This document shows, in pieces, positions 13,371 through 19,313 of a stretch of 36,256 nucleotides of DNA. This DNA comes from Alphaproteobacteria bacterium (GTDB taxonomy: Bacteria; Pseudomonadota; Alphaproteobacteria; RF32; CAG-239), in the NCBI GenBank assembly GCA_017444525.1, contig JAFSWL010000045.1, forward strand, positions 1 to 36,256, read 5' to 3'. The position numbers were made by a program, and so were the translations under genes. The notes beneath the pieces were generated by a model. The model saw only the letters and a program-made list of their open reading frames with translations, had not been told where the DNA came from and did no database searches. Numbering within the stretch: position 1 is the stretch's first letter; every line of letters begins with the position of its first letter.

Positions 13371-13430
13371 TGCTTTTTCGATAATTTTCGTCTAAAATCG
13401 TTTTCAGAATTGAAATTATAATGTATTTAT
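13371..13430 (+). promoter_or_regulatory. Promoter block of the orphan at 13470
   Basis: Matches 10556-10613: CTTGCTTTTTCGATAA, TTTTCGTCTAAAATC, then ATTATAATGTATTTATT with the -10 hexamer TATAAT at 13417-13422. The second half (ATTATA, then GTATTTATT) recurs at 19261-19277 before the 19314 gene. Confidence 0.6.
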
Positions 13431-13438
13431 TTAAGAAC

Positions 13439-13456
13439 CTCACGACAAGGCGTGAG
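13439..13456 (+). promoter_or_regulatory. Leader hairpin, copy 1
   Basis: CTCACG, loop ACAAGG and CGTGAG form a perfect 6-bp stem 13 bases before the ATG at 13470. The hairpin and its flanks (AACC before, TAATTA after) are identical to 19283-19300. It should lie at the 5' end of the transcript (expected start near 13429). Confidence 0.65.
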
Positions 13457-13469
13457 TAATTATAGAGTT

Positions 13470-14291
13470 ATGTATACACTCGACAGAGAAAGTCTCAAAC
13501 AGTTTGGAGTGCCCGAAAAATTTGAGCCGTTGTTTTACAACGTTTTCAAGGGCGAAGACGGTGGCATTTATGCCGCATACGGCGAGACAATGCACTTGCT
13601 GGCAAAGAGTTCCGTTGCTTATCGCATTTTCTGCGGTAAGAATGATCTTCCCTATTATGTGGCAGAAATTCAAAGAAAGATTTATTCTCCCAGCCAAGCC
13701 GGAGGCGAGCTTCGTAAGGCTGTAGATGACTTACATGCCAAGTGGAAAGATCTGTGCTGGTGCTTTGTTACCGAGAACATCTACACCCACGAGTATAAGG
13801 TGTTTGCCAAGTCGGCAACAGACTACGGAGAACTGCCGGAATGGGATGTCATCAGTATCGGCGGTGCCGCAAAGGCTCTGATTGCCGGAGGTGTTTTGAT
13901 GATCAAGGGCAAGGATTGCTACGAGATTGTTGATTTTGTTCCGTTTTTCGGAGCATCCGGAGGTAGCACGATTTTCTGGGCCGGTGAACAGGAACTTCTT
14001 GAAGCCTGTTTTGAGGCCGGAAAGCTGAAATTCCGCTACTTCGGACGTATTGAGAAGTTCACTCAGACGGCTGTCAGCAATCTGCTTGAAGTCAAGAAAG
14101 ATGAAGGCAAGTATGCCCTGTATCATCTCGGTAAAACCATGAGGTTTGTGGCATACTCGCTCTTTGAGAATGGTTTCAGAATTAAGGAGGATACCGGTGC
14201 AATTCGGTGCCGCTCTGCTGTTTGCTGTGATGGCATTCAAGACACTTCAGATGTCTACGTCTTTAAGAACGGGCGGTATGAAAGAGCTTAA
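13470..14291 (+). CDS. Hypothetical protein, 273 aa
   Basis: Not recognised. Soluble, alpha/beta, with no signal peptide; a Gly-rich middle (SIGGAAKALIAGGVLMIKGKD and FFGASGGSTIFWAGE) is notable, but it matches no nucleotide-binding motif I know. The start is the ATG at 13470; a GTG at 13452 in frame lies inside the leader hairpin and is rejected. No Shine-Dalgarno site. Codon use is richer in C/G-ending codons than that of ligA or the PAS gene. Confidence 0.72.
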   Translation: MYTLDRESLKQFGVPEKFEPLFYNVFKGEDGGIYAAYGETMHLLAKSSVAYRIFCGKNDLPYYVAEIQRKIYSPSQAGGELRKAVDDLHAKWKDLCWCFVTENIYTHEYKVFAKSATDYGELPEWDVISIGGAAKALIAGGVLMIKGKDCYEIVDFVPFFGASGGSTIFWAGEQELLEACFEAGKLKFRYFGRIEKFTQTAVSNLLEVKKDEGKYALYHLGKTMRFVAYSLFENGFRIKEDTGAIRCRSAVCCDGIQDTSDVYVFKNGRYERA

Positions 14292-17682: not shown

Positions 17683-18561
17683 ATGACAGACAAACGATAC
17701 ACCGCCGTGTTGGCGACTTTGTTTGACTCGGCTGCCGATGCCACGCTGGACTATGCCGTCAGCCGTCACAATATTCATAAAATGGTGTTTTTGCTCTCGC
17801 TGATTGCCGGTATCGGGCAAGTGGCTATCGGCGCGTTTATCGGCATTGATTGCACGTTTAAGGCCTTGCCTTATGTGGCGCTTCACGGCATATTGATTCT
17901 GCTCGGCTACATTTTCTTTTTGAAATCACTCAAATACACGCCGATTGCGCTGATTGGCTTGGTGCAGAGTAGCGAACTGTTTTTTACCGCCATTATTGAC
18001 TGTATGCTCGGTTATTTAACGCTTTCGACGCGCTTTTTGGTGTTATTAAGCTTGTTTGTGTTTGCCATCGCACTGTTTTATATCAACTGCATCAAAAACG
18101 AAAAAACTTCGGTTAAAGAGGTCAAGCCGATTGGGATTGTGCTGACACTCGGCACAATGTTCTTGTATGTGGTGGCAACTTATCTGATTAAGATATCGGC
18201 GGCGTATGGGGCAAGCGAAATCACGCTCAACCTCGGCTATTATGTGGTGGCGTTGCCGTATTTCGGCTGGCTTGCGCTCAAAGGCAAAGATGATGATACA
18301 AAAAACACCGCCAATCCGCGCTGGTATAACGGCTTTTATTTTCTGGCCTTTGCCATCGGCATTTTGGAAACGATTTTCTATGTGTTAGAAACATTCAGCT
18401 TTATTAACGACACGCCGACCATCGTGATGGCCATTAAGCAAATGGGGATTTTTGTGATGTTTTTCCTCTCGGTGCTGTTTAAAACGGATAAATTCACACC
18501 GCAAAAACTCCTTGCCCTTATCCTCGGCTTTATCGCCATTACCGGTCTGTATTTTAACTAA
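17683..18561 (+). CDS. DMT/EamA-like permease
   Basis: A 292-aa inner-membrane protein with about ten hydrophobic segments, in two similar halves, as in the drug/metabolite transporter superfamily. FFLKSLKYTPIALIGLVQSSELFF in the first half and the end ALILGFIAITGLYFN are typical of the family. Substrate unknown. The last 44 bases of the gene are part of a 101-bp segment that is repeated 488 bases downstream. Confidence 0.85.
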   Translation: MTDKRYTAVLATLFDSAADATLDYAVSRHNIHKMVFLLSLIAGIGQVAIGAFIGIDCTFKALPYVALHGILILLGYIFFLKSLKYTPIALIGLVQSSELFFTAIIDCMLGYLTLSTRFLVLLSLFVFAIALFYINCIKNEKTSVKEVKPIGIVLTLGTMFLYVVATYLIKISAAYGASEITLNLGYYVVALPYFGWLALKGKDDDTKNTANPRWYNGFYFLAFAIGILETIFYVLETFSFINDTPTIVMAIKQMGIFVMFFLSVLFKTDKFTPQKLLALILGFIAITGLYFN

Positions 18562-18618
18562 ACGAAGCGTCATCCCTCGATTTTGCACCGCAAAATCGTC
18601 AAGGGATCTTCAAATTAT
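18518..18618 (+). repeat. 101-bp direct repeat, copy A (DMT gene end plus REP-like palindrome)
   Basis: Contains the last 44 bases of the DMT gene and the first REP-like palindrome. It matches 19006-19106 at 99 of 101 positions (counted by eye; the two mismatches are within ATTACCGGTCTG/ATTACGGGGCTG). Confidence 0.9.
18567..18617 (-). repeat. REP-like palindrome R1
   Basis: On the minus strand it reads GATCCCTTGACGATTTTGC, short loop, GCAAAATCGAGGGATGACGC: a 9-bp inner stem (CGATTTTGC/GCAAAATCG) with outer ATCCCT/AGGGAT pairs. The constant outer frame GAT..(C)TGACG - stem - CGAG..ATGAC is shared with R2, R3 and R4, while the stem differs. Confidence 0.75.
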
Positions 18619-18961
18619 TTATTTGACATACATTAACAGATATAATACCTTGAAAATATGAAAAATATGTATGTTTATATAATGACAAATGCAAATAACA
18701 CTACATTGTACGTTGGGGTAACGAATGATATAGTGCGTCGCATTTGGGAGCATAAAAATGATATACATAAAGGTTTTACCTGCGAATATAATTTGCATAA
18801 ATTAGTTTATTTTGAAGTTTACGAAGATGAAGTGACGGCTATTGAACGGGAAAAATATCTCAAAAAATGTTATAAAAAAACAAAGATAAAACTCATTACT
18901 GAGCAGAATCCGCAGTGGAACGATTTATATGATGAAATAACTCCAATTTAATTTGAAGATC
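18605..18961 (+). mobile_element. Candidate REP-bounded GIY-YIG element
   Basis: The GIY-YIG gene is enclosed by a perfect 13-base inverted repeat, GATCTTCAAATTA (18605-18617) and TAATTTGAAGATC (18949-18961), whose outer ends continue into the inverted REP-like palindromes R1 and R2. The gene's stop codon (18949-18951) overlaps the right repeat. A TATAAT at 18641-18646 lies inside, so the unit could carry its own promoter. Classification as a mobile unit is an inference. Confidence 0.5.
18658..18951 (+). CDS. GIY-YIG domain nuclease, 97 aa
   Basis: A single-domain member of the small GIY-YIG family (UPF0213/YhbQ type). The signature strands are MYVYIMTN (residues 4-11) and LYVGVTND (17-24, the GIY and YIG equivalents), then the Arg of VRRIWEHK and the Glu of AIEREKYLKK, which are positions of the catalytic residues. 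Such proteins are predicted structure-specific DNA nucleases; their biological role is poorly known. The gene lies inside inverted REP-like palindromes and between direct repeats of the upstream gene's end. Confidence 0.88.
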   Translation: MKNMYVYIMTNANNTTLYVGVTNDIVRRIWEHKNDIHKGFTCEYNLHKLVYFEVYEDEVTAIEREKYLKKCYKKTKIKLITEQNPQWNDLYDEITPI

Positions 18962-19000
18962 GCTGACGCATTTGCCTGACGGCAAAGCGAGCGATGACAT
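18957..19000 (+). repeat. REP-like palindrome R2
   Basis: GATCGCTGACGCATTTGCC, TGAC loop, GGCAAAGCGAGCGATGAC. Stem TTTGCC/GGCAAA with outer GC and ATCGCT/AGCGAT pairs. Same constant frame as R1 but the opposite orientation, so the GIY-YIG gene sits between an inverted pair. Confidence 0.75.
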
Positions 19001-19005
19001 TTATT

Positions 19006-19106
19006 TTATCCTCGGCTTTATCGCCATTACGGGGCTGTATTTTAACTAAACGAAGCGTCATCCCTCGATTTTGCACCGCAAAATCGTCAAGGGATCTTCA
19101 AATTAT
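19006..19106 (+). repeat. 101-bp direct repeat, copy B
   Basis: Second copy of 18518-18618, with the final codons and stop of the DMT gene and palindrome R3 (19055-19105, identical to R1). It has no gene of its own; the DMT tail here is out of any expressed context. R2 directly precedes it. Confidence 0.9.
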
Positions 19107-19118
19107 AAAAAAAAAGCG

Positions 19119-19158
19119 GAAGATGCCCTGACGATTCCTGTCGGAATCGAGGCATGAC
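19119..19158 (+). repeat. REP-like palindrome R4
   Basis: GATGCCCTGACGATTCC, TGTC loop, GGAATCGAGGCATGAC: stem CGATTCC/GGAATCG with outer ATGCC/GGCAT. Same constant frame as R1-R3 but a third stem sequence. It is followed at 19167-19190 by a third, partial copy of the DMT gene end (ATTACGGGACTATATTTTAA, 3 differences). The 360 bases from 18952 to 19313 hold only these repeats and a promoter. Confidence 0.7.
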
Positions 19159-19215
19159 TTTCTTTTATTACGGGACTATATTTTAATTAAAATTCACATT
19201 GCCAAAAATTTATTC

Positions 19216-19244
19216 TTGACAAAACTTGCAGAAAATTATATAGT
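19216..19244 (+). promoter_or_regulatory. Sigma70-type promoter upstream of the 19314 operon
   Basis: TTGACA (19216-19221), a 17-base spacer and TATAGT (19239-19244). A second possible -10, TATAGT in the conserved ATTATAGTGTATTTATT, lies at 19263-19268, in the position it has before the 13470 gene. Confidence 0.6.
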
Positions 19245-19282
19245 TTTTTGTAGAAAGAAAATTATAGTGTATTTATTAGAAC

Positions 19283-19300
19283 CTCACGACAAGGCGTGAG
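19283..19300 (+). promoter_or_regulatory. Leader hairpin, copy 2
   Basis: CTCACG, loop ACAAGG, CGTGAG, identical to 13439-13456 including AACC before and TAATTA after it. It lies 13 bases before the ATG at 19314. Confidence 0.65.
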
Positions 19301-19313
19301 TAATTAGAGGCTT

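Follow-up and report, generated by a model that had tools for sequence, protein, structure and literature searches.

What could account for a small nuclease gene that lies between inverted palindromes, with repeated copies of a neighboring gene's end outside them? The question is raised by one locus in the window, as we call the whole 36,256-nucleotide stretch of DNA that was analyzed. The best reading is that of a REPtron-like mobile element in which a GIY-YIG nuclease replaces the RAYT transposase. It is probable that the locus holds a small insertion element, composed of a CGTC palindrome, a GIY-YIG gene, and an inverted CGTC palindrome, that has inserted at the 3′ end of a transporter gene and whose movement is driven by its nuclease.

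The insertion site is the 3′ end of an intact EamA/DMT-family transporter gene (17683..18561, plus strand; Pfam EamA, E 2.3e-10), as comparison with empty-site relatives indicates. Copy A of the gene end (18518..18561, plus strand), the left target duplication, lies in direct repeat D1 and is followed by R1 (18569..18608, minus strand), a CGTC-tagged palindrome that forms the left end of the nuclease element. The gene between R1 and R2 encodes a single-domain GIY-YIG nuclease of 97 residues (18658..18951, plus strand; Pfam PF01541, E 1.8e-16), confirming the original prediction on this point, and R2 (18958..18998, plus strand), a CGTC-type palindrome, forms the right end of the element. Both palindromes were identified by a frame scan and by single-stranded DNA folding. 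Copy B of the gene end (19006..19049, plus strand) also lies in D1, has a counterpart in a similar junction at a related locus (L263), and is at once the right duplication of the nuclease element and the left duplication of a gene-less palindrome pair. That pair, R3 (19057..19096, minus strand) and R4 (19122..19158, plus strand), is defined by the frame scan and site comparison. Copy C, the third partial gene end expected after R4, is present at 19167..19190 (plus strand) as ATTACGGGACTATATTTTAATTAA, on the evidence of sequence and site comparison. It is followed by native downstream sequence, which is what directly follows the transporter gene in empty sites.

The two direct repeats (18518-18618 and 19006-19106) are 101 nucleotides long and identical at 99/101 positions (98%), and they contain the gene end together with R1 or R3, as had been described; R1 and R3 are themselves identical. 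The perfect 13-base inverted repeat that was said to surround the gene is present as GATCTTCAAATTA (18605..18617, plus strand), which overlaps the inner edge of R1, and TAATTTGAAGATC (18949..18961, plus strand), which overlaps the inner edge of R2 as well as the stop codon. It lies inside a 16-nucleotide inverted repeat of 94% complementarity, with arms at 18602-18617 and 18949-18964. The frame GATnnn...nnnATGAC is common to R1, R2, R3, and R4. Scanning for this frame gives 9 matches in 152 kb of shuffled sequence versus four within 600 nucleotides at the locus, and the palindrome cluster is therefore not due to chance. When folded as single-stranded DNA, R1–R3 have z-scores of −4.8 to −5.9 and R4 is weaker, at −2.3. 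A constant outer frame around different stems had been proposed; the GAT/ATGAC frame and a TGAC-type bulge are indeed constant, but beyond them the outer stem varies as well as the inner one. A known RNA family was considered for the palindromes and rejected, as Rfam at gathering thresholds returned only tRNA and STnc490 matches, located elsewhere in the window. The STnc490 match (RF01405; 36131-36241; 63.7 bits versus a cut-off of 56) is a separate observation in an Alphaproteobacteria genome.

Read on the opposite strand, the palindromes begin with GTCAT, in which the tag is unpaired and AT forms the first stem pairs. An unpaired CGTC, or TGTC or CCTC, followed by a complementary AT is the mark of the CGTC-tagged REP superfamily, to which, judging from their sequence, the palindromes belong: R1 and R3 have CGTC-AT, R2 has the tolerated TGTC, and R4 has AGTC, one letter off. 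In the 2013 survey by Di Nocera et al. (PMC3733652), CGTC REPs are described as having a CGTC tag and a complementary AT at the outer end of the stem, as occurring mostly as dimers and mainly in Alphaproteobacteria, and as including Neisseria dRS3 and rickettsial RPE-4 and RPE-6. CGTC-tagged palindromes were found in five phyla, and REPs are mostly intergenic. According to the same text, CGTC REPs "apparently lack a dedicated transposase"; they lie near transposase genes in a few fortuitous cases only and are otherwise unassociated with them. The term "GIY" is absent from the survey's text. The palindromes of the window's own genus have longer stems with a 3-nucleotide bulge and are variable in the stem, whereas a CGTC REP is expected to have a stem of 8–9 bp and a loop of 4–5 nucleotides; they would therefore constitute a new subfamily. 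The classic 8-bp form, 24 nucleotides long, flanks the same nuclease gene in other genomes. One palindrome pattern has 12 copies in the window's genome and 0–27 copies in 12 further genomes of the genus, and a reversed control pattern had no match in the genus genomes scanned.

The original prediction proposed a mobile unit that restores the 3′ end of its target gene and called for loci that lack the insertion. In the genus, 13 of the 27 genomes contain the end of the transporter gene, at 15 places in total, and 11 of these places were read. Four of these sites are empty (L250, L251, L252, and L254), with the stop codon directly followed by AATTCACATTG. A palindrome pair alone occupies the transporter end at two sites (L262 and L257), and at L263 a nuclease element with a broken nuclease frame has a copy of the gene end on either side. 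The window combines both insertions in tandem at one site, in the order A-R1-nuclease-R2-B-R3-R4-C and then AATTCACATTG, so that the gene-less R3-R4 pair adjoins the nuclease element. Empty L251 and pair-bearing L262 are two sites in a single genome (G581). Of the remaining sites, L253 and L256 lack the native downstream sequence and are free of palindromes. L255, a paralogue with 74% identity, carries a palindrome and an interrupted nuclease gene and no second gene end. Each insertion at the transporter site duplicates 24–44 bp of the gene end, and because the target is duplicated the neighboring gene keeps an intact end. Gene and palindromes thus form one unit, found at some of the corresponding sites and missing from others, with target duplication, and empty and occupied sites of this kind are what defines a transposable element. 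Frameshifts or internal stops break the nuclease copies at L263, L010, and L017 in the window's genus, as would be expected of decaying mobile copies.

A similar layout is seen at a second target. At a sufB-like gene end (L022), a nuclease 48% identical to that of the window lies with a different palindrome type, and the sufB end is repeated after the element and again after a further short palindrome remnant. In five genomes a nuclease gene is located at the end of sufB or between sufB and sufC. The sufB gene is annotated at L169 and was recognized in Shinella (L268) by its match to L169; at L022, L086, and L097 the sole basis for recognizing it is the C-terminal motif LEGSVG. In Azospirillum the sufB-sufC gap is empty (L264-L267), with no tagged palindrome by scan; the Azospirillum and Sinorhizobium pairs show presence and absence of the insertion without a clean junction. 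Separately, in Sphingomonas parapaucimobilis (L269) a DUF559 gene is located at the sufB 3′ end or in the sufB-sufC gap.

Duplications outside the palindromes were also scored across the wider set of loci with palindromes on both sides. A score of at least 12 was reached at 21/98 loci versus 0 of about 1500 permuted pairs, in a test with palindromes masked that supersedes an earlier one with palindromes unmasked (14/55 versus 0.6% of permuted pairs at the same score). The flanking duplications are 12 to 54 nucleotides long. In only a few of the 21 can the sequence be assigned to a target gene (the transporter end, the sufB end, and a gene start at L093), and several are tandem copies in one genome, including three in G651. 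The L093 duplication spans a gene start, so that gene ends and gene starts could both be preserved. A simple staggered cut would not readily account for duplications of such length and variability, which counts against the insertion-element reading. Near-identical nuclease genes with their palindromes are also observed in tandem, at offsets of ~0.41 kb (L312, in G651) and ~0.54 kb (L314, in G677), and several kb apart at L313 (G638).

How general is the pairing of gene and palindrome? A profile built from 23 relatives matched in 114/289 genomes of the window's class, and one gene with its flanks was fetched from each of 80 of these 114. A tagged palindrome lies within 150 nucleotides of the nuclease gene at 55/80 loci and on both sides at 27/80, versus 45/685 and 2/685 for control ORFs in the same stretches (Fisher p 1e-36 for any side and 1e-26 for both), and the clustering of palindromes at small GIY-YIG genes anticipated for related genomes is thereby borne out. 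One of the 2 both-sided control ORFs is an antisense ORF that overlaps a second GIY-YIG gene. Palindrome density is 2.42 per kb near the gene versus 0.147 per kb away from it, a 16-fold difference; the scanner keeps nested and overlapping matches, such that densities double-count some palindromes and the any-side and both-side counts are unaffected. A tag-free test for alike hairpins on both sides gave 29/80 nuclease loci versus 1/683 controls. Among other classes of the window's phylum, presumably largely Gammaproteobacteria, a palindrome was found near the gene at 19/20 loci, taken from 20 of the 26 genomes with a match below 1e-26. In the phylum of a Chitinophaga genome (G584, locus L051), which we take to be Bacteroidota, the count was 28/30, with 30 loci tested from 64 matching genomes. 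Palindromes lie near the gene in Azospirillum lipoferum, Shinella, Sphingobium, Aeromonas caviae, Planktothrix, and Neisseria gonorrhoeae; they are on one side by scan in Sinorhizobium meliloti and downstream only in Photobacterium. In S. meliloti, a truncated nuclease remnant with a palindrome was observed directly before an intact copy (L164, ~2190-2285). No palindrome was found at the nuclease genes of Rhizobium K1/93 and L51/94, and 25 of the 80 nuclease genes sampled from the window's class are without a tagged palindrome, 11 of which are without a hairpin by the generic test too.

The association is specific. A sister GIY-YIG family, which we take to be YhbQ-like, has a tagged palindrome at 0/30 loci; the set scored 45–62 bits against the profile, and the 30 loci stand for 30 of 40 low-scoring genomes. 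The REP-type and YhbQ-like groups are split on one branch of the tree (support 97, from few columns). One palindrome type is found in 13/20 genomes with a REP-type nuclease versus 4/40 with the YhbQ type only, and the YhbQ-like control (0/30) is partly confounded because 36/40 of those genomes do not have the palindrome type tested. For stand-alone DUF559 nuclease genes, CGTC palindromes were found at 1/28 loci; these genes come from 14 genomes, 9 of which also belong to the set of 80. The proposal that such palindromes accompany every small nuclease gene is thus rejected by the DUF559 count and by the partly confounded YhbQ-like count. As evidence against itself, the original prediction had named palindromes with no link to GIY-YIG genes, or GIY-YIG genes always in palindrome-free loci. 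Instead, palindromes cluster at the genes, and the tested set of GIY-YIG genes that proved free of palindromes is that of the sister family, with the qualification that some REP-type genes also stand without palindromes.

Nuclease lineage and palindrome type are matched, as in a REPtron. The coupling set comprised 202 nuclease genes, 157 with a palindrome and 98 with palindromes on both sides; near-identical copies were counted once per genome, and genes below 70 bits were omitted. Nuclease lineages within a genome differ in their palindromes, and protein identity correlates with palindrome similarity within genomes (rho 0.64, 82 pairs, permutation p 0.002), with tandem copies feeding the high-identity end of the correlation. 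Same-genome pairs at 40–60% protein identity have a palindrome likeness of 0.42 versus 0.46–0.48 for random pairs, and palindromes on either side of the same gene reach a likeness of 0.81 versus 0.46 at random. On the protein tree, palindrome type requires 32 changes versus 73.8 for shuffled labels, a count that omits 36 palindromes typed as "other". The pairs are oriented in different ways (58 −+, 19 +−, and 21 same-strand; n = 98), and orientation as a lineage trait was rejected, with 17 changes on the tree versus 17.1 for shuffled labels. Together, the flank statistics and the within-genome coupling support the predicted REPtron-like layout with a GIY-YIG gene in place of RAYT.

Both the domain match and the conserved residues place the protein among GIY-YIG nucleases. 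Invariant columns in the alignment of 23 relatives include Y7, Y18, G20, R28, E65, and N84, of which Y7, Y18, R28, E65, and N84 presumably correspond to the catalytic residues of I-TevI. Pairs within the genus with finite dS have dN/dS values of 0.04–0.25, with dS near saturation. The nuclease fold is predicted confidently (pLDDT 93.5), and the prediction served solely as a check of domain integrity. Closest by sequence among solved structures are the UPF0213 proteins 1zg2 and 1ywl, followed by SLX1 (7cq2), a structure-specific nuclease, and UvrC (1yd6). The GIY-YIG domain fills the whole protein, so that a separate DNA-binding domain could not be accommodated, which would fit recognition of DNA structure by the nuclease. 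Assignment to the group I intron homing endonucleases (TIGR01453) was rejected at 21.9 bits versus the curated NCBIfam cut-off of 56. A Pfam search of the element returned GIY-YIG alone and no Y1 HUH transposase.

Could the gene and the palindromes have separate histories? GIY-YIG domains are well-known homing nucleases, and a homing-type gene might have inserted into pre-existing palindrome pairs as landing sites, the palindromes being moved by another enzyme. Gene-less pairs at the same transporter site (L262 and L257) and the identity of R1 and R3, as though the gene had entered beside an existing palindrome, would agree with such a history. However, empty transporter sites (L250, L251, L252, and L254) and empty Azospirillum sites (L264-L267) are without a tagged palindrome by scan, so that the gene may well come in along with its palindromes. 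L263, which has the nuclease element and no extra pair, likewise shows a duplication of target-gene DNA beyond the palindromes. We consider the homing-type origin unlikely. It is less likely still that the GIY-YIG gene is a passenger or a domesticated modulator that rides along with, or resolves the hairpins of, palindromes mobilized by another enzyme. Persistence of palindromes in genomes without a detected gene speaks for a passenger: among the 12 palindrome-scanned genomes of the genus, the palindrome type is kept in 4/6 without a detected nuclease gene, namely G001 (13 palindromes), G004 (19), G005 (4), and G012 (3), which are 95, 84, 89, and 72% complete. The same genomes count against cutting of the palindromes by the nuclease. 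Genomes without RAYT likewise keep REPs. A passenger would not be expected to match its palindrome type by lineage within genomes, nor would the tested sister family (YhbQ-like) then be unlinked to palindromes; moreover, CGTC repeats are unassociated with transposase genes save in a few fortuitous cases, according to PMC3733652.

It is also conceivable, and in our view very improbable, that the palindromes are ordinary intergenic hairpins, such as terminators or mRNA-stability elements, that accumulated near a small gene where the intergenic DNA is mutable and local tandem duplication takes place. REPs are mostly intergenic (PMC3733652), and tandem copies of the locus do exist, but the palindromes are infrequent at control ORFs (45/685 any side, 2/685 both sides), at the sister nuclease (0/30), and at DUF559 genes (1/28). 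The terminator reading itself was rejected, with two terminator-like sites in 18500-19250, both weak and on the minus strand.

We return, then, to a REPtron-like element moved by its nuclease. By analogy, it appears to work like a RAYT REPtron. In RAYT or TnpA-REP REPtrons, too, a small nuclease gene is bracketed by tagged palindromes, the palindromes are lineage-specific, and gene-less pairs (REPIN-like) occur. RAYT REPtrons, however, use a Y1 HUH transposase of the IS200/IS605 type and GTAG REPs, whereas the element described here has a GIY-YIG nuclease and a CGTC tag (GTCAT/ATGAC). Because tests for a Y1 HUH gene and for the GTAG tag both fail, the element falls outside the RAYT family. Y1 single-strand transposition is not known to leave a target duplication, unlike the element, which produces duplications of ~24–44 bp. 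The element nuclease belongs by sequence to the same fold family as the UPF0213/YhbQ-type and SLX1-type GIY-YIG proteins, but YhbQ-like proteins are on the other side of the tree branch and have palindromes at 0/30 loci. Free-standing GIY-YIG homing endonucleases and Penelope-like elements likewise use a GIY-YIG nuclease for mobility, and Penelope-like elements with a GIY-YIG domain have variable target duplications; the element differs in its several target sites and palindromic ends and in that no intron or reverse transcriptase was seen.

We infer that the nuclease cuts the palindromes. Most likely it would recognize the palindrome type that belongs to it, in hairpin or cruciform form, and nick near the CGTC tag. 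Offset nicks by the nuclease at the target could give rise to the duplication, with host replication or repair copying the element in and filling the offset, and gene-less palindrome pairs might move in trans, like REPINs.

The GIY-YIG nuclease is therefore a candidate for the missing mobilizer of CGTC REPs. The spread of these REPs has been an open question since the 2013 survey found no dedicated transposase (PMC3733652); the palindromes of the element are the CGTC REPs of that survey, and the nuclease partner is proposed here and not in that text. In open-licence literature judged by title or by the start of the abstract, and for PMC12306157 and PMC6006769 by terms only, no link between a GIY-YIG gene and REP palindromes was seen. 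Tying CGTC palindromes to one small conserved clade of nucleases makes the question directly testable and would assign a function to many genes annotated just as "GIY-YIG nuclease family protein". We lean toward the broader view that the element stands for a class of prokaryotic transposable elements that is new in its enzyme, a GIY-YIG nuclease of ~95 residues being the sole protein, and that it mobilizes CGTC REPs in at least two phyla and is one of several independent nuclease-palindrome partnerships. If so, the partnerships would be RAYT with GTAG REPs, GIY-YIG with CGTC REPs, and DUF559 with CCCTCTCCC palindromes, and much of the palindromic repeat content of bacterial genomes would have been left behind by tiny nuclease elements. 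This suggests that unrelated nucleases repeatedly evolved a palindrome-bracketed way of life.

The DUF559 pairing runs in parallel. Stand-alone DUF559 (PF04480) genes are bracketed by a pyrimidine-rich CCCTCTCCC...GGGAGAGGG palindrome that differs from the CGTC type. In the window's class, 28/30 DUF559 loci (L377-L406) were tested, with L399 and L402 omitted as broken or partial. A CCCTCTCCC-type palindrome lies within 260 nucleotides of the gene on any side at 24/28 loci and on both sides at 13/28, at a density of 2.36 versus 0.14 per kb; the same type is found at 1/80 GIY-YIG loci. A literature search for DUF559 with palindromes returned nothing relevant by title.

A further repeat is present in the window. 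A leader with a CCTCACGACAAGGCGTGAG-kind hairpin, which has no Rfam match at gathering thresholds, is repeated just before short ORFs at 19230-19313 and 13413-13472 and, in relatives, downstream of the transporter gene at L250, L251, and L254.
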